The position numbers and the translations under genes were made by a program. A DNA stretch of 64,000 nt from assembly GCF_000737595.1 (NCBI RefSeq), contig NZ_CP006271.1, forward strand, positions 1,116,001-1,180,000. Reading direction: 5' to 3'. Shown one piece after another: positions 26,893-40,623 of the stretch; position 1 is the stretch's first letter; every line of letters begins with the position of its first letter. The notes under the pieces were generated by a model that was given only the letters and a program-made list of their open reading frames with translations, was not told where the DNA came from and did not search any database. The stretch is from Synechococcus sp. KORDI-52. GTDB lineage: Bacteria; Cyanobacteriota; Cyanobacteriia; PCC-6307; Cyanobiaceae.

Positions 26893-26988
26893 CGGATTTT
26901 CGGTGCGATCGAGCGTTGCGTTGATCATCCGTGATCACGGATCAATCAACGTGTCATCGTTCCTCATCAACCGTTTCGCTGGTCTCCA

Positions 26989-27504
26989 GTGCAGGTTCAC
27001 CGCTCCCATGCCTTGGCTGTACAGCTGCCCGATGCATCCCTGGCCCAGCTGCAGCGCTACCTGTCGCAGCCTGCACGACCGATGAAGGCGCTTTTGAACC
27101 GTAAAAAAGTGGAGCAGCTGGAGGATGGCCGTTTTCTCTACGTCTCGCGGCCTTATCAATTGCTCAATGTGCAACTCCAGCCCGAGGTGGTGTTCCGCAC
27201 CCACTGGGATGGTGCCCAACTCAGCATCGTGTTTGAGGACTGCAAGATCGATGGACTCGGACAGTTGCAGGGACCGGCTGAGTTTCAGTGCCAAGCATGG
27301 ATCCGTCCCGAACAGGAGCGCCTGATTGCCAGGGCAGATCTCAGTCTTGAACTGTCTCCAAGGGGAGCAGGGGCCTTTTTGCCGAAGCCGCTGTTGCACC
27401 GCACGGGTGATCTTGCCTTGAGTTTGGTGATGGATCGATTGGAAAAGCGTTGTCGCAACGGATTGATGAAAGGTGCTTTGAAGTGGGTTGCACGCCATCC
27501 ATGA
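26989..27504 (+). CDS. DUF1997 family protein
   Basis: 171-residue soluble protein with beta-rich pattern. The N-terminus QLPDASLAQLQRYLSQPARP is followed by FLYVSRPYQLLNVQLQPEVV and a C-terminal helical segment. I recognise it as the cyanobacterial/plastid DUF1997 family, of unknown function. GTG 26989 is the best start. It precedes the polysaccharide export genes by 13 nt and has normal GC content, so the AT-rich block begins directly after it. Confidence 0.8.
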   Translation: MQVHRSHALAVQLPDASLAQLQRYLSQPARPMKALLNRKKVEQLEDGRFLYVSRPYQLLNVQLQPEVVFRTHWDGAQLSIVFEDCKIDGLGQLQGPAEFQCQAWIRPEQERLIARADLSLELSPRGAGAFLPKPLLHRTGDLALSLVMDRLEKRCRNGLMKGALKWVARHP

Positions 27505-27517
27505 ACATGCTTCATTT

Positions 27518-28360
27518 ATGCATAGGTGGTATCGTCAGTATTCCGAAGACTCTCCTGTCGACGTTGTGGTAAGCACGACAAATTCAGTTAATTCAACATT
27601 AACATTTAGGAATTTTTCTGTTCGGTGCGATAAAGCAAACCCAAAAATATCCTTCAAAGTCCCATGGGATTTAGAGCTTGTAGTAGGGAAAAAAGTTGCT
27701 GTGATTTCGAATAATTCATTTTTGCGGTATCAGCTGATCTCGGCCATTGCTGATCTCGTCCCGCCGGTGTCCGGTGAGGTCATCAGTAATGGAGTGATTG
27801 GTTGGCCTGTGGGTGGGGAAGCGGGTTTAGACAGCAAGTTGAGAATTTCTCACGCTCTCAACTTTCTCTCTGCCGTGTATGGTGATTGTCTTGAACAATC
27901 CCTAATCAGCGTGGATGAGTTCTGGGGACTGTTGGCTGGAGTTGAGATCGTTCCAGACTTAATCATCACAGATCTCTCCAAGAGCCAAAAAGACTTTTTC
28001 TTTTTGGCTCTATCTGTTCTTTTCCGTTTTGATTGTTATTTGATTCCTAAGACAAGATATCTGATGTCTAACGATGCAGAAGTTCTTCGCGATCTTCTGC
28101 ATGAACAGCTGGAAAATAAAACTCTTGTTAGTAGCTCGACCAACAGTCGATTTCAGCGTGAGTTTTGTACTGATGGCCTTGTGCTGGGACCGCAGGGTCA
28201 GATCCTTTTCGCTGGTGGGCTTACGGAAGCGATCCAGTGGGCCGATCACAATCTCTTGGCATCTGATGTGTCAGACTCTGAAGATGAACAGTTTGAGCTG
28301 GCCGCGAATCTGAAAAATTCTGAATCTGGCGATGACATTAGTGATTCCGAGATTTTCTGA
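27518..28360 (+). CDS. KpsT/Wzt-like ABC protein with degenerate ATPase motifs
   Basis: 280 residues, aligned by fold and context with polysaccharide-export ATPases, yet every catalytic motif is lost. The Walker A position reads VISNNSFLRYQL (residues 62-73), with Arg70 for the Lys and no Gly loop. The signature position reads DLSKSQKD. The Walker B position reads FDCYLIPKTRYL, with Pro177-Lys178 instead of Asp-Glu. The switch histidine region reads SSSTNS. The C-terminal 30 residues are very acidic (SDSEDEQ...). It sits directly before a KpsM-like permease and is probably a non-hydrolysing partner or regulatory subunit. Codon use is AT-rich. ATG 27518 is preferred over an upstream TTG. Confidence 0.75.
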   Translation: MHRWYRQYSEDSPVDVVVSTTNSVNSTLTFRNFSVRCDKANPKISFKVPWDLELVVGKKVAVISNNSFLRYQLISAIADLVPPVSGEVISNGVIGWPVGGEAGLDSKLRISHALNFLSAVYGDCLEQSLISVDEFWGLLAGVEIVPDLIITDLSKSQKDFFFLALSVLFRFDCYLIPKTRYLMSNDAEVLRDLLHEQLENKTLVSSSTNSRFQREFCTDGLVLGPQGQILFAGGLTEAIQWADHNLLASDVSDSEDEQFELAANLKNSESGDDISDSEIF

Positions 28361-28375
28361 GGGGGAAATACATCG

Positions 28376-29209
28376 ATGAATTTTTTCCGCAAACTTTACA
28401 GTTCAATTTGGCGTCAGGTTGCCATTGTTCTCGCCATTGCCACCTATCAGAATGATAGAAAATCAACAGGCACTTCAATAGGGGCATGGGAGAGCATTGT
28501 TTCGCCATTGCAGATCATGTTGTTCTTTATTGCAATGCGCGTAGGCTTTAGTTTTTTAAGGGGCCAAAATCGATTCGCAGCCGGTGGGTCAACGGATATG
28601 TATTTCAATATTGTTATTTTTATCGTCTCTGGGTTTGCTCTTGCTTTCATCTTTCGGCAAGGGGCGATCAAGCCGCTTTCTGGCTTGAAATTAAGGGCAC
28701 CCCTTTACTACAGAAGAATCAGGCCATTGGACATTCTTTTGGCCTTGTTGGTGAATGATATTAGGGCTATTTCGACAATTTCTTTAGCGCTTTTGGGACT
28801 GGTGTGGTGCTTCACATGGTCATTTCAGCTTGACAGCCCAGGCTTGGCATTCATTGTCTATATGCTCACGATTGTATTGGCAATTGGCTTTGGCATATGC
28901 CTTGTCTTCATCGGCCAATGGAACAAATGGATCACCAGGATCATTAAAAGGCTATTGCAAAGGATAATTATTTTTACGTCAGGAATATTTTTTGCTACTT
29001 TTGAGCTTCCTGCTTATACTAGACCATACATAACATGGAATCCTATTCTCCATGCGGTAGAGCTTTTCAGGTATGCAATGAATAACGAATATCCCATTCC
29101 GGATATTTCTCTCTCTTATTTGGTCTGGTGTTCAACGATTACGCTCGGCTTTTCGTTGATTCTATATCGAACAAACGAATACTTGCTTCTTGAGGCTAGT
29201 GATGATTGA
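28376..29209 (+). CDS. KpsM-like ABC-2 polysaccharide export permease
   Basis: 277 residues with about six membrane helices (for example VSPLQIMLFFIAMRVGF, IVIFIVSGFALAFIF and LAFIVYMLTIVLAIGFGI) and the ABC-2 pattern with a final FTSGIFFATFELPAY...WNPILHAVELFR segment, typical of capsule exporters of the KpsM/Wzm type. It would move a polysaccharide across the inner membrane. It follows the degenerate KpsT-like gene by 15 nt. AT-rich relative to flanking genes, suggesting transfer. Confidence 0.85.
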   Translation: MNFFRKLYSSIWRQVAIVLAIATYQNDRKSTGTSIGAWESIVSPLQIMLFFIAMRVGFSFLRGQNRFAAGGSTDMYFNIVIFIVSGFALAFIFRQGAIKPLSGLKLRAPLYYRRIRPLDILLALLVNDIRAISTISLALLGLVWCFTWSFQLDSPGLAFIVYMLTIVLAIGFGICLVFIGQWNKWITRIIKRLLQRIIIFTSGIFFATFELPAYTRPYITWNPILHAVELFRYAMNNEYPIPDISLSYLVWCSTITLGFSLILYRTNEYLLLEASDD

Positions 29210-29251
29210 CATGTAGTTGTTCTTTCACGCGTCTTGAATTAAATTCTCCCA

Positions 29252-30460
29252 ATGACTGAATCCATCAAGCCCTCCAGCTCTCCATCATCTTTCGAGGATG
29301 AGTCGCCGTCGTCATTCTTGATCCCCAGTCCTCTGGCTCCTGATCAGCAAACACCGGCTTGGCGCGAGCGGCTGAACGGGATTGCAAAGCCGAAGATATT
29401 GCTAACAGCTTTTTTGGCAACTTCGGCGCTCTACTGTTTTGTGATTGGTCGTGATCGATATACAGCTGTTTCCGAGTTTGTGATTCAGCAGGCTTTGCCC
29501 CTTGAGGGAGGATCGGCTTCGGTGTTGGCGGGATCAGCATCGGCCCCCCAGGTGTTGACCTCTCTGGTGGATGGTCAGTATCTTCAGGTTTATCTTGAAT
29601 CTTCTGCTGTCAAAAATCGCTTGTTCCCTAATGGGAAGACGCTTGAGCAGGATTACAGGCCTAGATTTCCGGATCTTTGGGCTGGATTGTCTTCCAACAG
29701 CTCTGTTCCGGAACAGCTCAACTTCTACAGAAAGCAACTGTCTGCAACCCCTCAGCCTTTGAGCGGTTCAGTGATTCTGAGGACATCCGGATTTAGTCCC
29801 GAACAAGCTTTCAATCTCAACAATGAGTTGCTGAAACAATCTCGACTTTTCGTTAATGAAGTTAATCAGTCTATCAATGCCGACCAAAATAAATTCGCCA
29901 GAGAAGAAGTTCAATTGGCGGAAAACAATCTTAAAGAAGCGAAAAACAAGTTGGAGGCATTCCGTAAAAAGAATGGCAACCTAAGTGTTGAAACTGAACA
30001 GGCTGCAGCAAGTTCGTTCATTTCCGGCCTTGAATCTCAGCTTGTTGAGTTGAAAGTGGAAGAGGCTGCACTTCGCCGTCAGTATCGAGATCCAAATGCA
30101 CCTGAGGTTGCATTTGTCGCTGATCAAGTGAAGGAACTGGAGGTGCAGATTCGTGCAGAAAGGAGCAGAGCTGTCAGCGAAAATGGGAGGGATTTGAACG
30201 CTCTTGTGCTTGAAGAAGCAGGGTTGATTTCAGATGTTGAATTTGCGACAGAAACACTGCAAACAGCTCGGCTTGCAGCGGATAACAGTCGTCGGGAAAG
30301 CATCCGTCAGTTGAAATTTGTGGTTGTTCTCAGCCAAGCTCAAATGCCTGTTGAAGCCGACTCAAACTGGCGTTGGCAAGCATTTTTGGGATCGGTTGGG
30401 ATCATTGTTGTTGCCTGGGGCGTGGGTGGATTTATTCTCAACGCGATGCGTAAGGGTTAA
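29252..30460 (+). CDS. KpsE/BexC/CtrB-like capsule export inner-membrane protein
   Basis: 402 residues of the polysaccharide co-polymerase-3/Wzz family. A proline-rich cytoplasmic N-terminus is followed by one membrane helix (ILLTAFLATSALYCFVIG, about residues 49-66). A periplasmic coiled-coil follows (EEVQLAENNLKEAKNKLEAF and EEAALRRQYRDPNAPEVAFV, about residues 210-290). A second helix (WQAFLGSVGIIVVAWGVGGF) ends the protein. Such proteins bridge the exporter to the outer-membrane channel. It is the third gene of the export set. Confidence 0.88.
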   Translation: MTESIKPSSSPSSFEDESPSSFLIPSPLAPDQQTPAWRERLNGIAKPKILLTAFLATSALYCFVIGRDRYTAVSEFVIQQALPLEGGSASVLAGSASAPQVLTSLVDGQYLQVYLESSAVKNRLFPNGKTLEQDYRPRFPDLWAGLSSNSSVPEQLNFYRKQLSATPQPLSGSVILRTSGFSPEQAFNLNNELLKQSRLFVNEVNQSINADQNKFAREEVQLAENNLKEAKNKLEAFRKKNGNLSVETEQAAASSFISGLESQLVELKVEEAALRRQYRDPNAPEVAFVADQVKELEVQIRAERSRAVSENGRDLNALVLEEAGLISDVEFATETLQTARLAADNSRRESIRQLKFVVVLSQAQMPVEADSNWRWQAFLGSVGIIVVAWGVGGFILNAMRKG

Positions 30461-30487
30461 CGCGCTGATCAACCATCGTTTCCTCAA

Positions 30488-33400
30488 TCAAGGACGTAGG
30501 CTTCCATGCCCCTTGGCTGCCAGGTAATACCCACAGGCTCGCGCAAAATGAAGCCGACGGCGTGAAATGAGGTCATCATTGGTGATATCTGGATATAACT
30601 CCTGGGCTTTTTTGTCGTTGGCACAAGAGCGTTCAATCATTTGCAAAACCTCTTGTTTGGTTGAAGGCAGCTTTTCGCCGAGGAGCTGGTTGTAAAAATG
30701 CCATTCTGTATTGGCACGTATAACGGTTTCACGGAAACCATATTCATGGGAATGGCGAACCACTGCTGTTGATGCATAGGCTTTTTTATACCCCCTCCTG
30801 AGAATTTCACGCGCCCACAATTGATCCTCGCCATAAACAACGTCTGGAAGAGGCAGAGTTTCACAAATGGATTTTCTTAGGCAAGAATTGTTGTCGGAGT
30901 AGAAGCGTTCATGGCTCGAGACAACACCATTGCTGGTTTGTCGACCTACTTCCAGTTCGATCGGTTGGCGATGGCTTCTGAAAATCCAACGATTGAAATG
31001 TTGATCGAGATCATGGGCGGTGAGTTGTCCATGGGTGGTATGCGCCATGTGGCATCCGAAAACACCGGCCACACCGGGGTCTTTCTGGAGGGGGGCGATC
31101 AGATTCATCAGCCACATGCGATTCGCAGGAATAGCATCTTGCGTGATGAAGGCGACGTATTCGCCTCGGGCAAGCTTCACCCCCAGGTTACGGGTACGCC
31201 CATGGCCAAAATCCTTTTTGCGAATTTTGTGCAGGCGGAGCCGTTCATCCTCTGGTAACCCGTCAAGGCATCCATCGCTGGACTCACTGTCGATCAATAA
31301 CACTTCAAAGGGCTGATCGAGATCCTGTGCGAGACAAGACTCAACAACGGCTCTGAGCATTGCACCCCCGTTGTAAACGGGAACGACGATCGTCACCAGG
31401 GGCACCGCTGGCTCCAAGTGTTGTGATGTTGGCGCGGAGGGAAGCGATTCCTGAATGTAGGCCTCAACCAATTTGTTGGAGGAATCCCAGTTGAGATGCT
31501 CAGTGGCGGCGAGCCCTGCTCTTGTGGTGCGTGCCCTGAATGTCGAATCGTTCAACAAAAGGCTCAAGGCCGATGCAAGGTCTGCTGGTGTCGCTTTCGC
31601 CAGGACAGCGGTTTCCGGTTGATAGGAGACCCGCGTGTGTTCGGCATCGATATCAACAACGGGCAGTCCGCAGGCCATCATTTCGTTGGGAACCAGGGAG
31701 TAATTGGTTCCCGATAGGACGAATCCGACCGTGCACTGGCGATAGAGGTTGGCTAGGTCATCGGCTTCAAGAATCCCAGCGTGCTTCACCTTCACAGGAA
31801 TTCCAAGATCGGGTAGATCTGTTTCGCCGAAGGTGATGATCTCGAAGTAGTCCCCCAGATCAAACAAAGCTCTCAGGGCAAGAAGCCCCAGTTCATAGAG
31901 TCGTCTTGGCGTGCTACGCCTCACATAGAAGGCAATGGCATGACTGCTGCGTTTCTGAGTGTTGTCGGGGTGGTAAACATCGTGGTCGACTGCTAGGGGG
32001 AAAGAGATGGCCGAATTGCCAAAGCTTTCCATCTTCTGTTTCAGCCAAGGGCTGGCACAGATGCAGGAAAAGTTATTTTCAGATGCGTAGGATTGTTCGG
32101 TGAGGATGCTGGAGCTTCCTCGCGCGAAAAAATAGGCTTCATAGTCCTGAACAAAGTAAAATCTTTTCTGAAACTTTTTCATCCCAAGCACGGGATAGGT
32201 GCTCATGCGGTCAGTGGCGATGACAATGTCGCCGCTGACGCGATCGAGGTCGTCCTGGTTGTTGCCCAGCATGTAAACCTGATCTGTTTTGAGTGGAATG
32301 AAGGCCTGGTCGATGACACGCTTATGGAGACTGCTGAGGCGACTTGGCTTGTCGTTCCCTTTGAGCTCTGAATGAACCCAGATTGTGCATTGGTGACCAC
32401 AGCGTTCCAGATAATCAATGGTCCTGAAAATGGTCATGTGGCCACCAAGGCCAGGTGTGAAATTAGGGATGACCCAATGGATGTGTAGGGATTTAGGGTT
32501 GGTGTTGTTCTTGAGTGACCAATCTGGATCCAGTTCCTTGGATTTGAATTGAATAACCTTCTCAAACCCTTGAATTTTCAGCTTGTTTCGACCTTCAATA
32601 ATTGATTTGTCCGTAAGATGTTGTTTTGAAAGGAAGTACCCGCAGTATGTTGTTAGCAGCTTTTGATTGCATATTTCAGTTGTTGACAGCCCGATAAGGC
32701 GTTCAATGCTATGGGCGATCGTCCCATCGATCTGACCGCCTTCCTCGTCAAAGTCGTGCCAGCTGAGATTCCAGTCAAGAATCGGCCTGAGCAGGTCTGG
32801 CTTGCACCAGAACATCGTTCCTGTTGGGAAGCGGAACTGGCTGTCTCGTGTGATGTGGTCGAGATTGAAACGTTTGAGGAAGGGGCTGGCTTTCGTGTAG
32901 TTGCCATCCTCATGGCCCCAGCAGGAATCGTGCTTGATCCCGAGGCTGAGAGCATAGTTCTCGACCGGATAGACAATGCCGATGTCTGGTGATTGAAGAG
33001 CCTTGAGGTTGGTGGCTGCAATGGTTTTGCTGCCAATCAGGTTGTCCAGGCAGTGGAGGAACCAGCCGCTGAGGGCGTTGCTGTGGGGGCTTTTTTTGGA
33101 GTGGAGCTTCAGGATGAGGTCGTAGTTGGGTATTTCATCCTTGAAGCCAACGATGAATGGGGCAACGTCACGGCCGATATTGCTAAAGTGCCTGACTTCA
33201 ACCTTCTGCGCATTGTCGACTTGAGAAAAAATGTGCTTCAGAATCTGGATTGAATCTTCTTTTGTGGAAATGAAGACGTCAATTCTGCACGGTATGTTCT
33301 TAAGGTATGAGGCGATTGTTTCGCCAAGCTCAGGGTAGAAGATATGCAGGAAAACGCCAACTCTTTTTCCTTTTAGATCGTCTATAATGGAATTTTCGAT

Positions 33401-33973
33401 ACTTTTTTCGGCTCGTTTGATGTCGGCCATCTTTCGCATGAAATGGATGTTATCCATCGAAAAGCGGCGTTCGTTCATTCCGAATTTGAAGCAGTGCACC
33501 ATCGGGTTGAGCCCACTCGCTTTGACGTCGGGATATTTGCTCAAGTAATTTTCTGTTTCGAATAAATTGCTCGGATCTATGCCCTCTCGGCAGCCTGATG
33601 TGCAGTAATGAAGAATCACATCACCGATGCTTTGTAGTTTCCCTGCTTCTTCGAGCTCGAGTTGGGATTTGTAGTGTTCAATGTCAAAAACATAAGCGTA
33701 GTGAGCTAATTCGCGGAAGTCGCGAACAATCCTCTTGCTTGTACCTTCGCTTTGCAGGCTTTTGATGTATTCCTGCAATTCGGGAGTTGTTTTTTTGCGC
33801 CTGTTGTTGGGCTGGTTCTGGTGTTTGTCTTTCCCTAGTCGATTCAGTTGATTTCGAAGCTTTCTGGGTAATATTTTTGATCTGCCCAATGCAGAAGCAG
33901 AGCGCATGAATGCCTTGCGTGTCGCGTTGGAGAAAGGGGAGAGCGAGCGACGTTGTTTAGGCATGCCGCTCAT
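30488..33973 (-). CDS. Multidomain glycosyltransferase with RgpF, GT4 and GT2 modules
   Basis: 1161 residues. A basic N-terminus is followed by a YLSKYPDVKASGLNPMVHCF motif common in polysaccharide glycosyltransferases. An RgpF-like rhamnan module (VGVFLHIFYPELGE...ILKLHSKKS) lies at about residues 205-440. A GT4-type module (HWVIPNFTPGLGGHMTIFRT, later GFVLSGTNYSLVPNEMMACG) spans about 495-830. A GT2 module (TIVVPVYNGGAMLRAVVES, LIDSESSDG) spans about 860-1100. Three transferases in one chain suggest synthesis of a rhamnose-rich glycan. It converges with the export genes. Confidence 0.88.
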   Translation of the reverse strand: MSGMPKQRRSLSPFSNATRKAFMRSASALGRSKILPRKLRNQLNRLGKDKHQNQPNNRRKKTTPELQEYIKSLQSEGTSKRIVRDFRELAHYAYVFDIEHYKSQLELEEAGKLQSIGDVILHYCTSGCREGIDPSNLFETENYLSKYPDVKASGLNPMVHCFKFGMNERRFSMDNIHFMRKMADIKRAEKSIENSIIDDLKGKRVGVFLHIFYPELGETIASYLKNIPCRIDVFISTKEDSIQILKHIFSQVDNAQKVEVRHFSNIGRDVAPFIVGFKDEIPNYDLILKLHSKKSPHSNALSGWFLHCLDNLIGSKTIAATNLKALQSPDIGIVYPVENYALSLGIKHDSCWGHEDGNYTKASPFLKRFNLDHITRDSQFRFPTGTMFWCKPDLLRPILDWNLSWHDFDEEGGQIDGTIAHSIERLIGLSTTEICNQKLLTTYCGYFLSKQHLTDKSIIEGRNKLKIQGFEKVIQFKSKELDPDWSLKNNTNPKSLHIHWVIPNFTPGLGGHMTIFRTIDYLERCGHQCTIWVHSELKGNDKPSRLSSLHKRVIDQAFIPLKTDQVYMLGNNQDDLDRVSGDIVIATDRMSTYPVLGMKKFQKRFYFVQDYEAYFFARGSSSILTEQSYASENNFSCICASPWLKQKMESFGNSAISFPLAVDHDVYHPDNTQKRSSHAIAFYVRRSTPRRLYELGLLALRALFDLGDYFEIITFGETDLPDLGIPVKVKHAGILEADDLANLYRQCTVGFVLSGTNYSLVPNEMMACGLPVVDIDAEHTRVSYQPETAVLAKATPADLASALSLLLNDSTFRARTTRAGLAATEHLNWDSSNKLVEAYIQESLPSAPTSQHLEPAVPLVTIVVPVYNGGAMLRAVVESCLAQDLDQPFEVLLIDSESSDGCLDGLPEDERLRLHKIRKKDFGHGRTRNLGVKLARGEYVAFITQDAIPANRMWLMNLIAPLQKDPGVAGVFGCHMAHTTHGQLTAHDLDQHFNRWIFRSHRQPIELEVGRQTSNGVVSSHERFYSDNNSCLRKSICETLPLPDVVYGEDQLWAREILRRGYKKAYASTAVVRHSHEYGFRETVIRANTEWHFYNQLLGEKLPSTKQEVLQMIERSCANDKKAQELYPDITNDDLISRRRLHFARACGYYLAAKGHGSLRP

Positions 33974-34006
33974 CTAGCTGATCTCGAAGAATCACTATGC
34001 AATTTA

Positions 34007-35143
34007 TCATTCACACGCTTGGCCTTGCGTTGTTTTTATGCCCAATCTGCTGCCGTCATAGCCCGCTTTCTGACGCACTTTGGTGCACCACTCCTGATTC
34101 GTCAGGTACCAGCGCACGGTCTCCGCCAAGCCCTGTTCCACGTTGTGGCGAGGGCTCCAGCCCAGCTCGGAACTGATGCGGCTTGGATCAATCGCGTAGC
34201 GGCGGTCATGGCCTGGGCGGTCTGTGACCGGTGTAATCAAATTGGCGTGGGGAGCTGATGCAGGGCAGCTCTGATCAAGCTCTGTGCAAATGGCGTCAAC
34301 GACTTCCTTGTTCGTGCGTTCCCCGTGGCCACCCACGCAGTAACTGCTGCCGGATTTGCCTTTGCAGGCGGCCAGCAGCAGGGCATCGACGTGGTCTTCC
34401 ACGTACAACCAATCCCGCACATTCAGCCCATCGCCGTAGAGCGGAATCGACTCCCCGCCAGCCGCTTTCAAGGTGACCACTGGAATCAGCTTTTCCGGGA
34501 ACTGCCAGGGGCCGTAGTTGTTGGAGCAGTTGGTCAGCACCACGGGCAGGCCGAAGGTGTGGTGCCAGGCCTGGACCAAGTGATCACTGGCCGCCTTGCT
34601 GGCGGAGTAGGGGCTGCGGGGGTCGTAGGGCGTTGTCTCCGAGAAGCGCCCTTCGGAGCCCAATGAACCAAAGACTTCATCGGTGCTGATGTGGTGCATC
34701 CTGAAGGCGTCCTGGCGTTCACCGCTCAAGCCTTCGTAGTGGCCCCGCACCGCCTGCAGCAGGTTGTAGGTGCCGTTGACGTTGCTCTCGATGAACACAC
34801 CAGGGCCGGAAATGGATCGATCCACGTGGCTCTCCGCTGCCAGGTGCATCACCAGATCGGGGTCGGCCGCCTGCACCGCAGCCTCAACGGCAGCGGCATC
34901 GGTCAAATCCACCTGCTGAAGGTTGTGGCGATCGTTCGCCGCGCCCCCCAGCTCGCTCAGCACCTCCTCAATCGAGGACAGGTCGCTGGCGTAGCCCATC
35001 TTGTCGAGATTGAAGACGGTGACTGTGGTCTCCCGCAACAGCCTGCGGACGACGGCACCGCCGATGAAGCCGGCACCTCCGGTGACCAGAACTCTGCGGC
35101 GATCTCCCAGCAGGTCGGAGGCGGAAGGCATGGACGAAACCAT
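34007..35143 (-). CDS. rfbB: dTDP-glucose 4,6-dehydratase
   Basis: Second enzyme of dTDP-L-rhamnose synthesis, an extended short-chain dehydrogenase. The NAD-binding GGAGFIGG lies near residue 22, and the catalytic YSASKAASDH is at about residue 180. 378 residues is slightly longer than usual because of both ends. ATG 35143 or 35131 may start it. It is the last gene of the leftward dus-GT-rfbA-rfbC-rfbD-rfbB run. Confidence 0.95.
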   Translation of the reverse strand: MVSSMPSASDLLGDRRRVLVTGGAGFIGGAVVRRLLRETTVTVFNLDKMGYASDLSSIEEVLSELGGAANDRHNLQQVDLTDAAAVEAAVQAADPDLVMHLAAESHVDRSISGPGVFIESNVNGTYNLLQAVRGHYEGLSGERQDAFRMHHISTDEVFGSLGSEGRFSETTPYDPRSPYSASKAASDHLVQAWHHTFGLPVVLTNCSNNYGPWQFPEKLIPVVTLKAAGGESIPLYGDGLNVRDWLYVEDHVDALLLAACKGKSGSSYCVGGHGERTNKEVVDAICTELDQSCPASAPHANLITPVTDRPGHDRRYAIDPSRISSELGWSPRHNVEQGLAETVRWYLTNQEWCTKVRQKAGYDGSRLGIKTTQGQACE

Positions 35144-35200
35144 TGGTGAGAGCGTGGGTGGGGCGTTGTCTGGGGTTGGGGTGTTGAACTCAGTCGCCCT

Positions 35201-36088
35201 TCATGGCGTTTTGAATTGCTGCAACACGGTCTTCAGAGCTTGCTGCCAGTGCTCGCCGTTGAGGTCCAGGGCGGATCGGGTGGCGGTGCAGTCAAGGAGG
35301 GAATAGGCCGGCCGTTCTGCAGGGGTGGGGTAGTCCGCTGTGGTGATCGGTTGAACGGCTGCGGGCGTGTCGATCAGCCCCACGTCAGCACCGATTTGGC
35401 CAACGGCCACCGCCACGTCGTACCAGCTGGCGGCGCCGGCATCACTCCAATGCATCACAGCTGGCAAGTCGCTGTCACCTGCGATCTGAAGGGTTTGCCA
35501 ACAGGCTTGAGCGAGGTTGAGCGTGCTTGTGGGACAGCCCACCTGATCGGCGACAACACCCAGTTGGTCCCGTTCCCGGTGGAGGCGGAGCATGGTGAGG
35601 GCAAAGTTTTTGCCTACGGGCCCGATCACCCAGCTGGTGCGCAGGATCAGGCCCCGGCCTTCTGTTCCAAAAATCGATTGGACCGCGGCTTCTCCAGCAG
35701 CTTTGCTGGCCCCGTAAACACCGAGAGGGTCGCGGGCCTGCTCGGGTTGATACGGCGTCCCCTGGGTTCCATTGAAGACGAAGTCGGTGCTGATCTGGAG
35801 CAGGCGTCCTCTCGCTTGTTGATCAAGAGCGCGGGCGAAGGCTTCCGGTGCCCCGGCATTCACGGCGTGGGCCAGATCGGGCTCCGACTCGGCCTTGTCC
35901 ACCGCTGTGTAAGCACCGGCGTTGAGGACCCAGTCGGGTTGGTGCTGTTCCACGGCGCTGCGGCAGGCTTCAGGGTCCGCCAGATCAAGCTGCTGACGGC
36001 TGGTGGCCACCAGGTCGATTCCCTCAGGGGCGGAAGCGATCAGAGCCTGGCCCAGCTGACCGCCAGCTCCGGTGAGCAGCACCTTCAT
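35201..36088 (-). CDS. rfbD: dTDP-4-dehydrorhamnose reductase
   Basis: Final step of dTDP-L-rhamnose synthesis. GAGGQLGQAL is the nucleotide-binding loop at the N-terminus, and YGASKAAGE holds the catalytic Tyr/Lys. 295 residues is normal. The start overlaps the rfbC stop by 4 nt (ATGA), indicating coupled translation. 57 nt separate it from rfbB. Confidence 0.95.
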   Translation of the reverse strand: MKVLLTGAGGQLGQALIASAPEGIDLVATSRQQLDLADPEACRSAVEQHQPDWVLNAGAYTAVDKAESEPDLAHAVNAGAPEAFARALDQQARGRLLQISTDFVFNGTQGTPYQPEQARDPLGVYGASKAAGEAAVQSIFGTEGRGLILRTSWVIGPVGKNFALTMLRLHRERDQLGVVADQVGCPTSTLNLAQACWQTLQIAGDSDLPAVMHWSDAGAASWYDVAVAVGQIGADVGLIDTPAAVQPITTADYPTPAERPAYSLLDCTATRSALDLNGEHWQQALKTVLQQFKTP

Positions 36089-36675
36089 GGGAAAACGTCT
36101 CCAGCTGCTGCAGCGACTTTGAACCCTGCTGCTTTGGCATCTTTGCTTGAGAGGCTTACCTCGGCGCTCTGCAGCCGATCAATCGGCCAGGCAATGGCCA
36201 GATCCGGGTCATTCCAGACGATGGCCCGTTCACAGGATTTGTTCCAGAACCCGCGCGCCTTGTATTGCACCTCAGCCACCTCGCTGAGGGTGAGAAAGCC
36301 GTGGGCGAAGCCCTCGGGAATCCAAAGCTGGCATTTGTTGTCGGCACTCAGTTCGGCGCCGATCCAGGCGCCGTAGGTGGGGGAGCCGCTCCGGATGTCG
36401 ACAGCCACGTCGTAAATCGCTCCGACCGAGGCACGCACCAGCTTCGCTTGGGGTTCTGGTGCGAGCTGGTAGTGCAGTCCGCGAAGCACACCCTGGATCG
36501 AGCGGGAGTGGTTGTCTTGCGAAAACAGCACCGATTCGCCCACCGCTTCATTGAATTTGTGTTGGTTCCAGCTTTCGAAGAACCAGCCACGGTCATCGCC
36601 AAAGGCCTGGGGCGTGATCAGCAGGGGGCCCTGCATCACCGCGCCGGACGGTGTGTTGAGTTGTTCAAGCTGCAT
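36085..36675 (-). CDS. rfbC: dTDP-4-dehydrorhamnose 3,5-epimerase
   Basis: Cupin epimerase of the rhamnose pathway. Typical segments are [29 protein letters not shown] (catalytic His), [17 protein letters not shown] and [15 protein letters not shown]. 196 residues, family-normal. The start overlaps the end of rfbA by 11 nt. Confidence 0.95.
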
Positions 36676-37615
36676 GACTCACCTCCAGGCTGGATTGCAG
36701 GGCCGCGTGATCGCTCACGCTCTCCTCGAGCATTTGCAGGAGATAGGAGCCGTAGCCACTCTTCTTGAGGGGCTGCGCCAGCTGATTCAACTGTTCTGCG
36801 GTGATCCAGCCCTGGCGCCAGGCCACCTCCTCCGGGCAGCCCACCTTGAGCCCCTGGCGATGTTCGAGCGTGCGGATGTAGCTGCCGGCATCGTTGAGGG
36901 AATCGCAGGTGCCGGTGTCGAGCCAGGCCATGCCACGACCCATCAGTTCCACCCGCAGCAGCCCTTCAGTCAGATACATCTGATTGAGATCAGTGATCTC
37001 CAGCTCGCCACGCGATGAAGGCTTCACCTGGCGGGCCCGTTCCACGACGCTGTCGTCGTAGAAGTACAGCCCGGTAACGGCATAGCGGCTCTTGGGCTTC
37101 TGAGGTTTTTCCTCCAGGCTCAGCACCTGGCCATTGGCATCGAATTCGGCCACGCCATAACGCTCGGGATCACTGACGGGGTAGGCAAACACCGTCGCCC
37201 CTTGGGCTTGCCCGTTGCTGTTCACCAGTTGGGGCACCAGATCGTGCCCATGGAAGAGGTTGTCCCCCAGCACCAGCGCGGCGGGGTGGCCGGCCAGAAA
37301 GTCGGCACCAATCAAAAACGCCTGGGCCAAACCGTCCGGGCTCGGCTGTACGGCGTATTCGATCGTCATGCCCCAGCGGCTGCCATCACCGAGCAAGCGC
37401 TGAAAAGCCTCCCTGTCGTGGGGAGTGGTGATGATCAGCACCTCGCGGATCCCCGCCAGCATCAGGGTGCTGAGGGGGTAATAAATCATCGGCTTGTCGT
37501 AAACCGGCAGTAGCTGTTTGCTGACGGCCTGGGTGATCGGATGCAGCCGCGTGCCGCTCCCGCCAGCCAGGATTATCCCCCGTCGCTTGGATGCGGTTTT
37601 CATCGACTGGCTCAC
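36665..37615 (-). CDS. rfbA: Glucose-1-phosphate thymidylyltransferase
   Basis: Activates glucose-1-phosphate with dTTP, entry to dTDP-rhamnose. The nucleotidyltransferase signature [20 protein letters not shown] begins near residue 17, and [20 protein letters not shown] follows. 316 residues includes a short N-terminal extension. It overlaps the preceding glycosyltransferase by 4 nt (ATGA). Confidence 0.96.
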
Positions 37616-40600
37616 CGCGGTGAAGTCGGCGCTATTACAGCACGAGACCCCTTGCGATCACTTACATTCAGTCGACGGCGCAGCCGTTCAAGCAGTCGCT
37701 TTAACTCTGGTTTCGGCCGCAGTTGGCGTTCGATGCTGGCCGCCAGCTGAGGGTTGCGTTGGCCGATCACCTCGCGCCAGCTGTCGACCGGTTGCCGTGT
37801 GGGGTTGTCGCGCAGCAGGCTCACCTTGAGGAAGGGGAAGCCCCGTTCCTCAATCAGGTGCTTCCAGTCGTAGTGCAGAACATTTCCGTTGGCGTTGTGG
37901 GTGTAGAGGCTCTCGAGCTTCAGTTCCGCTGCGCGCAGCTGCACCGGCAGGCCCACTTCGCATTGTTTGACCAGATCCCGTTTGCGGGGCCAGATCTGCA
38001 GGGACTCCCAGAAGCGGTTGAAGGCCTGGCACTTCAGAGCCGCTGGTTTGTAAGCGGTGAAGGCGGACGACAGATGCGGTTCGTACATCAGATCGTCCGT
38101 CAGCCCAATCACATCCGCTGTGCTGGCGTGCATGCGTTGGAACAGATCGTCGAGGGGGGTGATCGGTCCCCAGAAGCTGTCGTTGGTGAGCACCAGAAAC
38201 GCTGCTTGATCAATGTCCTGCCGATACAGGTTCAGTGCTGCGTTCCAGCTGCCGAAGTCATAGCCCTGGTTGCGCCGGATCACGATCGCGGCACAGCGTT
38301 GGCGCAGCCGATGCAGAGTTCTCGGGTGCCAGCGCAGCCCGCTGGCTGACGACACAACGATCACATCGGCGAAGCGTCGGTACTCGTCAATCAGGGGGAA
38401 GAGGTCGTCCCGAAACCGGTTGTCGGCTGAAAAGTGCGCCAGCACAACGATCGGTCGTTGACGGCTGGGTTGGAAGTTCGGATCCCTCCAGTGCATCAGC
38501 ACGGCATCGTCCACCGGACCTTTCGAGCGCGGTGCGGGTTCCCGGGGTTGGTAGCGGTTGCTGTGGGGATGAATCCGCTGGCTGGTGAGGGGATCGCCTG
38601 CCGCAAACAGCCCGGCGTGCTTGGCCCTCAGCTGACCGGATTCCCGTTGATGCCGAGCCAGCGCAGCGCCTTCCCGATCCTTGCCGCGGCTGATCGATTC
38701 GTGATGAACGATCTCCACAAAGGGGGTCACGACCACTGAACCACCGCTCTGCCTCAGGCGCAGGCAGAGATCCACGTCGTTGAACACCACGGCGAGATTT
38801 TCATCAAAGCCTTGGATCCGATCGAAATCGCTGCTGCGGAGCATCAGGCAGGCTCCGGTTGCTGCAGTGAACTCCTCCTGCACCAGCAGGGGTGTCAGCG
38901 TGGCCAGCACGGGGGGGCTATGCAGGTGTTTGCCGGGCTCCACCACACAGCGCCGCTCTCCCTTCACCAGGGCGACCCCCTGATGCTGGATGCTCCCGTC
39001 GGGGTAGTGCAGCTTGGCTCCCACGGCAGTGGTGCCGCGGTAGGCGAAAGAGTCCAGCAGGGCCTGGAGCACCTCGGCGGATCGGAATTCGATGTCGTTG
39101 TTCAGCAGCAACAAGTGGCTGCCACGGGCATGGCGGCGGCCGATGTTGTTGAGCCGCGAATAGTTGAACGGTTCGTCCACCCGCACCACGCCCACGTCAT
39201 CGAGCTGTGCCTGTTCCTCCAGCCAGGCCTTGGTGGCGGCCTCCTCACTGCCGTTGTCGATCAGGATCAGCTCGTAGGCCACAGCTCCGGCACAGCGGCG
39301 CAGCGAGGCGACACAGCTTTGGGTGAGATCCACCCGGTCGCGAAATGGGATCAGAACCGACACCAGAACCCTGGGGTCCGCGCGGAGCTGCAGCTGATGG
39401 CAGGCGCTCAGCGATTGAGAGGGAGTGAGCTCCCCACCCGGCACCAGGAAGCCTGGGCTGTGCCGCTGGGTGATGGCCAGGATCTCAGCGCTGAGTTCGC
39501 CGGACCAGCAGTGGCGGTCGGCCGGGGAGGCAACGTCGGGCACGGTCGGGTTCGCCCGGATGGATCGCTGCAGCAACACCTCCGGGCAGTGGGCAACGGG
39601 GTCGCCGCGACGGCAAACCTGCAGCGCCAGATCCAGCAGCAGGGCATGCAACGAACCGGTGGATGCCGGCAGGGTCAGCTGTTGCAGTGTTGACCAGCGG
39701 ATCGTCACCAGGCCGCCGATGCATCCCCGGCAGAGCAGACGCAAGGGTGTGATCGCTGTCCTGTTCTGGCGATTTCCCGCCGGAATGTCTGGGTCGTCAC
39801 TCCAGCGCAGGGTTTCATCGCTGGTGAGCAAGACCGCTTCAGGGTGTTGCGCCGCACAGTGGGCCATGCGCATGTCCGCTTGGGGATCCAGCTGATCACT
39901 GGCGTGGCAGAAGCTGATCAGGGTGTTGCTTTCTGGGAACGGCGCTCCGATCCATCCAGAGGGATCCTCGAGGGAGGCGTGCCGGATCTGGCCCCACCCT
40001 TCCGGTTGTGAGCTGCGGGCCGACGCGGCCTCTGCTTCTTGTCGGGTTGGGTGGAGAACCACCAACACCGTGGCCGCTGAGGGGATGGGCCCATTTGGAG
40101 CTGGGTCTGGGATCGGGGGCTGGTAGCGATCGAGATCCATGCCCAGGGGGCGTCGCTGCTGGAAGCGTTGACGGCCGATGCTGCCCAGGTGCTCCAGGGC
40201 GCTGAGGGAGCCTTCACGTGCCGCTGGTCTCAACCCATCCCGGTAGGCCTGGAGGTGCACCGGCGGCAGATCCGTGAACAGGCTGCGCTCTCCCAGGGCG
40301 ATCTCGCCCAGCCGGCCGCTGCTCAGCAGTTGCTTGGTGTCCGTGAGGTCCCGATGGCAGGCCAGAAGATCGACGGGATCCAACCCGCTGTCTTCCGGAG
40401 ACCACTGGCTCGGGTTGCGCAACAGGGCGATGGGCAGCAAGGAAGGGTCCAGCAGCTCTTGTGGGAGCAAGGGGAGCTGCTGGTGGAGCTGTTGTTGCCA
40501 ACGCTCGATCTCCTCGGCGCTGGCGCGACCCGACCGCCAGCGCTGCCAGGCCTGGGCATCAAGCGTGCTGTTGTTTTGGCCGCTTGCAGGTTTCACGCCC

Positions 40601-40623
40601 TGATCGTCGGGGCGTCCAGTCAA
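37612..40623 (-). CDS. Large two-module glycosyltransferase (GT2 plus RgpF-like)
   Basis: 1003 residues. The first ~400 residues have no family I recognise. A GT2 module ([44 protein letters not shown]) covers about 405-640. A C-terminal RgpF-like region ([45 protein letters not shown]) covers about 720-960. Both are consistent with rhamnosyl transfer. It lies between dus and rfbA with 4-nt overlaps on each side, tying it to dTDP-rhamnose supply. Confidence 0.88.

Follow-up and report, generated by a model that had tools for sequence, protein, structure and literature searches.

Can a capsule exporter still work when the ATPase encoded beside its permease has lost all of its ATP-site motifs? 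This question is raised by a locus in a 64,000-nucleotide stretch of the Synechococcus sp. KORDI-52 genome (hereafter, the window). An open reading frame at 27518..28360, on the forward strand like the other exporter genes, encodes a catalytically dead KpsT homologue, psT, of 280 amino acids (aa) from an ATG; an upstream TTG at 27488 offers an alternative start and a 290-aa product. It is followed, 15 bases 3' of its end, by the gene for a KpsM-like permease of 277 aa (28376..29209; NCBIfam KpsM, 4.9e-16) and by that for a KpsE-like periplasmic subunit (PCP-3) of 402 aa (29252..30460; BexC/CtrB/KpsE, NCBIfam TIGR01010, 2.6e-44). The initial annotation had described a KpsT-like gene adjoining an intact KpsM-like permease, and this description holds: the reading frame is in place, the permease gene is the sole KpsM match in its own genome, and the best five PDB matches (Foldseek) of its AlphaFold2 model are all KpsM chains. 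A scan of positions 26900-30520 for promoters and terminators gave a signal no higher than in shuffled sequence. On the opposite strand, positions 30488-40623 carry rhamnose genes (RmlA/B/C/D type) flanked by genes for two very long RgpF-domain glycosyltransferases (1161 and 1003 aa).

To place psT, we compared it with known families by sequence and by predicted structure. It matched no Pfam family at E <= 1, and the gathering score of PF00005 (ABC_tran) was not reached. A phmmer search against PDB retrieved only KpsT of the KpsMT-KpsE exporter (8tsh/8tsi, 2.4e-8, residues 60-231). An AlphaFold2 model built on a 23-sequence alignment (A1) reached a mean pLDDT of 83.4, with most of the core above 90 and residues 1-23 and 262-280 below 50. 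As the initial annotation had anticipated, the model resembled polysaccharide-exporter ATPases: Foldseek matched it to TarH (9cfl_B, 9.0e-14) and KpsT (8tsl_A, 7.9e-13) and also to TagH and Wzt, and VIA-align 2 superposed it on 7k2t_A (Z 20.0, rmsd 2.8, 210 aligned) and on KpsT 8tsl_A (Z 19.9, rmsd 2.9, 215 aligned). The predicted fold is that of an ABC nucleotide-binding domain (NBD), although both the psT and KpsM models are ligand-free and a fold match carries no proof of function. Membership of a non-ABC family, which would have overturned the initial annotation, was ruled out by the phmmer match to KpsT together with the Foldseek and VIA fold matches.

Alignment located the position of each former ATP-site motif. 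At the Walker A site (residues 64-72, 27707..27733), psT has S64-N-N-S-F-L-R70-Y-Q72, whereas sister KpsTs have G-x-N-G-A-G-K-S-T. The KpsT box, WPVG..(A/G)GL, is retained at residues 96-105 (27803..27832); the "GFQ" position of the Q-loop reads G-L-D105, with Asp105 for the Gln. The "SSGM" position of the ABC signature falls within D152-L-S-K-S-Q-K-D159 (27971..27994), the former Walker B reads CYLIPK (residues 173-178, 28034..28051) with P177-K178 for Asp-Glu, and the former switch region (residues 202-208, 28121..28141) has T208 for His. The last three of these changes had been read correctly in the initial annotation, as had the acidic C-terminal tail (residues 246-280, 28253..28357), which is mostly predicted to be disordered (pLDDT below 50 from residue 262); the last 45 residues include 13 acidic and one basic. 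The tails of psT proteins from the same genus, designated g1 (L001-L025), often have an aromatic or hydrophobic last residue (-DDF, -DELW, -EIF); such ends presumably resemble SSB-type C-terminal peptides, and a short binding motif is possible.

The motif losses are common to all orthologues in a group of 39 dead KpsT proteins, as examined at the suggestion of the initial annotation. A full Walker A (G....GK[ST]) was found in 0/39 members, and the same is true of the Walker B Asp, the Walker B Glu, the Q-loop Gln and the switch His. The earlier claim of Arg70 for the Walker A Lys, with no glycine loop, is right for the window protein but not as a fixed replacement: two of the 39 have Lys at this position, and the others have R, S, A or other residues. 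A functional Lys-to-Arg swap was ruled out by this variety across the clade. A signature-like Y[ST][SV]GMK, absent from the window protein, is present in three members (G126, G152 and G173, all of g53) and is probably a remnant. This g53 sub-branch (L179, L103, L104) has kept Y[ST][SV]GMKDR and lost Walker A and B; it might be a transitional form or supply one half of a mixed ATP site. On the other hand, the KpsT-box Trp (equivalent to Trp96), the Phe preceding Walker B and a Cys are kept in all 39 proteins. Among the 84 columns invariant in eight intact KpsTs, mean retention in the dead clade was 0.11 for the 18 catalytic columns versus 0.38 for the 66 others (Mann-Whitney p 8e-4). In clade A (15 sequences), where an SFL[RSK]YQ-type motif is conserved, the former Walker A has an entropy of 0.51 bits versus 1.12 bits for all core columns; as the alignment reads, the gap is refilled here by a new conserved motif. 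The region is not more conserved than the core in g53/g68 (1.15 vs. 0.86), and values are even in clade B (0.56 vs. 0.59).

We then analyzed the distribution of psT. It was detected in 25 of 34 g1 genomes and in none of 25 genomes outside the genus (59 genomes searched, comprising the own genome and relatives). A profile search matched 146 of 400 family genomes at 1e-5, mostly through weak partial matches, and the dead-KpsT group comprises 39 genomes (25 g1, 10 g53, 2 g68, 1 g57 and 1 g32), the g57 member (G351) being encoded on a short contig, in a genome that is 85% complete. The stronger family matches of the intact type (about 21) had full motifs in 8/8 that were read, and outside the family (291 class genomes, 1e-15) all nine matches read were intact KpsT/Wzt-like proteins. 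Within the genomes searched, the dead-KpsT clade is limited to one picocyanobacterial family. Four named records (AG-670-B23, MED650 and two other MAGs) place the group in marine Synechococcus, and psT carriers are ocean and freshwater picocyanobacteria.

Phylogenetic analysis of the 39 dead KpsTs with eight intact KpsTs and seven outgroup sequences recovered the former as one clade (support 100/100) that excludes intact KpsT and Wzt-type proteins. The KpsM and KpsE trees, both unrooted, likewise show a single branch dividing the partners of dead KpsTs from those of intact ones. The initial annotation had called the protein an unusual export component, which is fair for a dead KpsT; it is not a single odd protein, since the state is shared by a clade of 39 members. 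Considering that psT belongs to the KpsT lineage by descent but failed the catalytic tests, we name it a dead-KpsT variant rather than a KpsT ATPase.

The initial annotation had further proposed that psT is selected as a pseudo-ATPase and has not decayed, and both reading frames and substitution rates agree with this. The frame is open in 39/39 clade members (in L005, two stops both lie upstream of the first in-frame start) and stops occur on the reverse strand at the locus; hence, a wrong frame, a pseudogene or a sequencing error was rejected. Nei-Gojobori dN/dS was 0.08-0.20 in 23 of the 25 closest listed pairs, those with finite dS. Because most pairs have a dS close to 1 or higher, the two closest carry most weight (dS 0.17 and 0.36; dN/dS 0.11 and 0.195). 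Judged by these ratios, psT is under purifying selection. In a close pair (G003/G029), dN/dS was 0.195 for psT versus 0.073 for KpsM, and the single pair of intact KpsTs whose dS was finite gave 0.049, lower than psT; the kpsM row of G010/G025 (22% identity; a coordinate or frame error) was left out of the psT-KpsM comparison. Decay of the psT gene, to which the catalytic loss might point, is hardly credible against open frames throughout, these ratios and the placement of all members in one old clade.

The genomic context points to capsule export. In the own genome, the region of 959.9-968.7 kb encodes a PF05159 pair (KpsC-like, 776 aa; KpsS-like, 651 aa) and a Poly_export-SLBB protein. With KpsM, KpsE, KpsC, KpsS and a KpsD-like (OPX) protein, the genome contains the whole ABC-dependent (group 2 like) capsule set, indicating a capsule-export system. 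In the same region (L197 3472-18727; G000:C1 953-969 kb), KpsC-like, KpsS-like, acyltransferase-like and OPX genes lie near a NeuB-CBS-SAF protein, which suggests a nonulosonic acid (sialic/legionaminic type) glycan. Of the g1 genomes with 90% completeness or more, 15/19 had psT, KpsM and PF05159 (KpsC/S) together and 4/19 had none of them (Fisher p 2.6e-4). The misfits are all among incomplete g1 genomes: KpsM and PF05159 without a psT match (G013, G017), psT alone (G002, G011, G030), PF05159 alone (G019, G022) and no PF05159 (G024). A KpsD-like OPX protein was found in all seven psT genomes checked and also in one of four psT-negative genomes. Some g1 genomes without psT/KpsM (L132-L134: G020, G001, G033) encode long Wzt-like ATPases (450-483 aa frame) that may belong to another type of surface-glycan exporter.

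Genes of the dead group run in the order psT-kpsM-kpsE, in contrast to kpsM-kpsT-kpsE in intact sister genera, and several g53/g68 genomes have about 1 kb between psT and kpsM. The four clade B genomes of g1 that have psT and kpsM on one contig (G007, G016, G024, G032) show a distance of approximately 17-19 kb between the two, so that the operon is not universal, being split in at least four g1 genomes. In three of these genomes (L171-L173: G007, G032, G016), psT is on the strand opposite kpsM-kpsE.

The permease differs at a position that might contact the NBD. The cytosolic TM2-TM3 loop of the window KpsM (residues 103-119, GLKLRAPLYYRRIRPLD, 28682..28732) is altered together with psT, and from its position we infer that it is the NBD coupling helix. 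The loop motif AN[ES]A is present in 8/8 KpsMs with an intact KpsT versus 0/37 of the dead group; in most of the latter, residues rich in Lys/Arg replace it ahead of a kept Y-x-x-[ILV]-x-P-x-D. Retention of intact-invariant columns was 0.42 in the N-terminal half of KpsM, which includes the loop, versus 0.84 in the C-terminal half (p 2e-4), and averaged 0.74 in KpsE. Part of these KpsM differences may be plain divergence of the two clades.

A spare motor was sought at several levels. A true KpsT used as query matched none of the 44 ABC candidates of the own genome at E <= 1e-12. In clade B genomes, the best match of this query was the dead KpsT itself, and intact KpsT was absent from all 14 further psT genomes outside g1 (best, 129 bits in a 475-aa frame); six intact-KpsT genomes, used as positive controls, yielded the true KpsT at 260-515 bits. 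An unpaired intact KpsT elsewhere did not turn up in the genus search or in these 14 controlled genomes, and the suggestion in the initial annotation that psT might pair with one, along with the genome check it proposed, came out negative. Likewise, no cognate second NBD, such as the partner in a half-degenerate heterodimer, was found in the own or the 14 further psT genomes, though a partner from an unrelated ABC family may exist.

Since the sole matching motor is dead and yet selection keeps psT, the pump would be run in some other way. The main rival explanation is that a generalist ATPase from elsewhere powers KpsM, much as the shared ATPase MsiK/MsmK serves sugar importers, with psT as adaptor or regulator. 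The export complex otherwise has no energy source, and the 43 PF00005 matches of the own genome provide candidates. However, comparison of 22 ABC loci of the own genome with KpsT revealed no KpsT-like one (best, 66 bits), and the ten short ATPases scanned match the DevA, LptB, PhnC, MacB-like, Mn/Zn importer, amino-acid importer or DrrA-type families. An NBD paired with psT would, moreover, form no complete composite site in 36/39 members, because these psT proteins lack Walker A/B as well as the signature. A borrowed ATPase is therefore an explanation that we take seriously but doubt. It is also conceivable that KpsM, psT and KpsE no longer export and now form a structural or sensing envelope complex. 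Both the missing energy source and the faster evolution of psT relative to KpsM fit such a change, but the co-occurrence with KpsC/KpsS in complete genomes, the KpsD-like protein in every psT genome checked and the strong retention of KpsE and of the C-terminal half of KpsM make it unlikely. Nucleotide binding and hydrolysis through non-canonical residues, for which the conserved ex-Walker A of clade A could be cited, is very improbable: every member has lost the acidic pair of Walker B, the Gln of the Q-loop and the switch His, and P-loop Gly/Lys positions are lost in nearly all, with replacements that vary between clades.

The explanation we favor, at evenly balanced chances and from sequence comparison, is that psT serves as a non-hydrolysing structural or gating NBD of an ABC-derived capsule exporter which is not powered by its own NBDs. 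psT would dock under KpsM via the kept Q-loop/helical scaffold and the re-tooled KpsM loop and might keep the dimer of KpsM open to substrate, and the acidic tail may gate this dimer; that psT might regulate by binding glycan through the tail, as the initial annotation put forward, is likewise a conjecture. Glycan movement would be driven by something other than ATP hydrolysis in the exporter's own NBDs; growth of the chain behind the exporter, electrostatic forces or some further partner are candidates. The extension to the whole clade, in which a KpsM-type capsule exporter would run without any ATP-hydrolysing NBD, serving as conduit or gate, its dead NBD re-purposed structurally and another force moving the polymer, is more tentative, a possibility that we place somewhat short of even. 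Several observations count against a dead-NBD exporter: psT is less constrained than KpsM and than intact KpsT in the one pair compared for each, three members have the signature-like motif, the operon is split in at least four g1 genomes, and co-occurrence of PF05159 and KpsM is imperfect among incomplete genomes. The published KpsMT mechanism relies on ATP hydrolysis, which also argues against it (PMC11041684). According to the same text, glycolipid loads into the KpsM canyon and may migrate independently of ATP before ATP-driven translocation (PMC11041684); the loading and migration part of this model could persist without an ATPase.

To our knowledge, all degenerate ABC transporters described so far retain one or more functional ATP sites. 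The accessible open-access literature yielded no description of a dead KpsT or of an ATPase-less capsule ABC exporter. In the available text of a 2015 phylum survey, marine Synechococcus and Prochlorococcus lack most EPS proteins/genes, more than 7000 KpsT/Wzt homologues were inseparable from other ABC ATPases by its filter, and no dead KpsT is described (PMC4594306). If our explanation is true, an old, clade-wide exporter with a dead sole cognate NBD would show what an NBD contributes structurally, apart from its work as a motor. Such an exporter would likewise put to the test whether long glycans can exit without hydrolysis by KpsT, a step for which the 2024 KpsMT structure paper invokes ATP (PMC11041684). 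In addition, the system bears on surface-glycan building in abundant marine picocyanobacteria.

Among known systems, Wzt and TarH-TagH polysaccharide NBDs have the fold in common with psT (9cfl_B, 7k2t_A and 7dd0 are among the best matches), but their catalytic motifs are intact and psT is nearer to KpsT by sequence and locus. KpsT of KpsMT-KpsE (8tsh, 8tsi, 8tsl; PMC11041684) is similar to psT in sequence (2.4e-8) and fold (VIA Z 18-20). Both have KpsM and KpsE neighbours and keep the KpsT box SWPVG-GGF/L, whereas psT lacks any ATP-site motif and has an acidic C-terminal tail. It may also be compared with TAP, CFTR and ABCB11, which retain one consensus ATP site. In these exporters with one degenerate site, as in psT, selection keeps an NBD without catalytic residues, according to the part of the literature available (PMC7544095). 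In the psT system, by contrast, the only KpsT-type NBD comes from a single gene and has neither half of the site.
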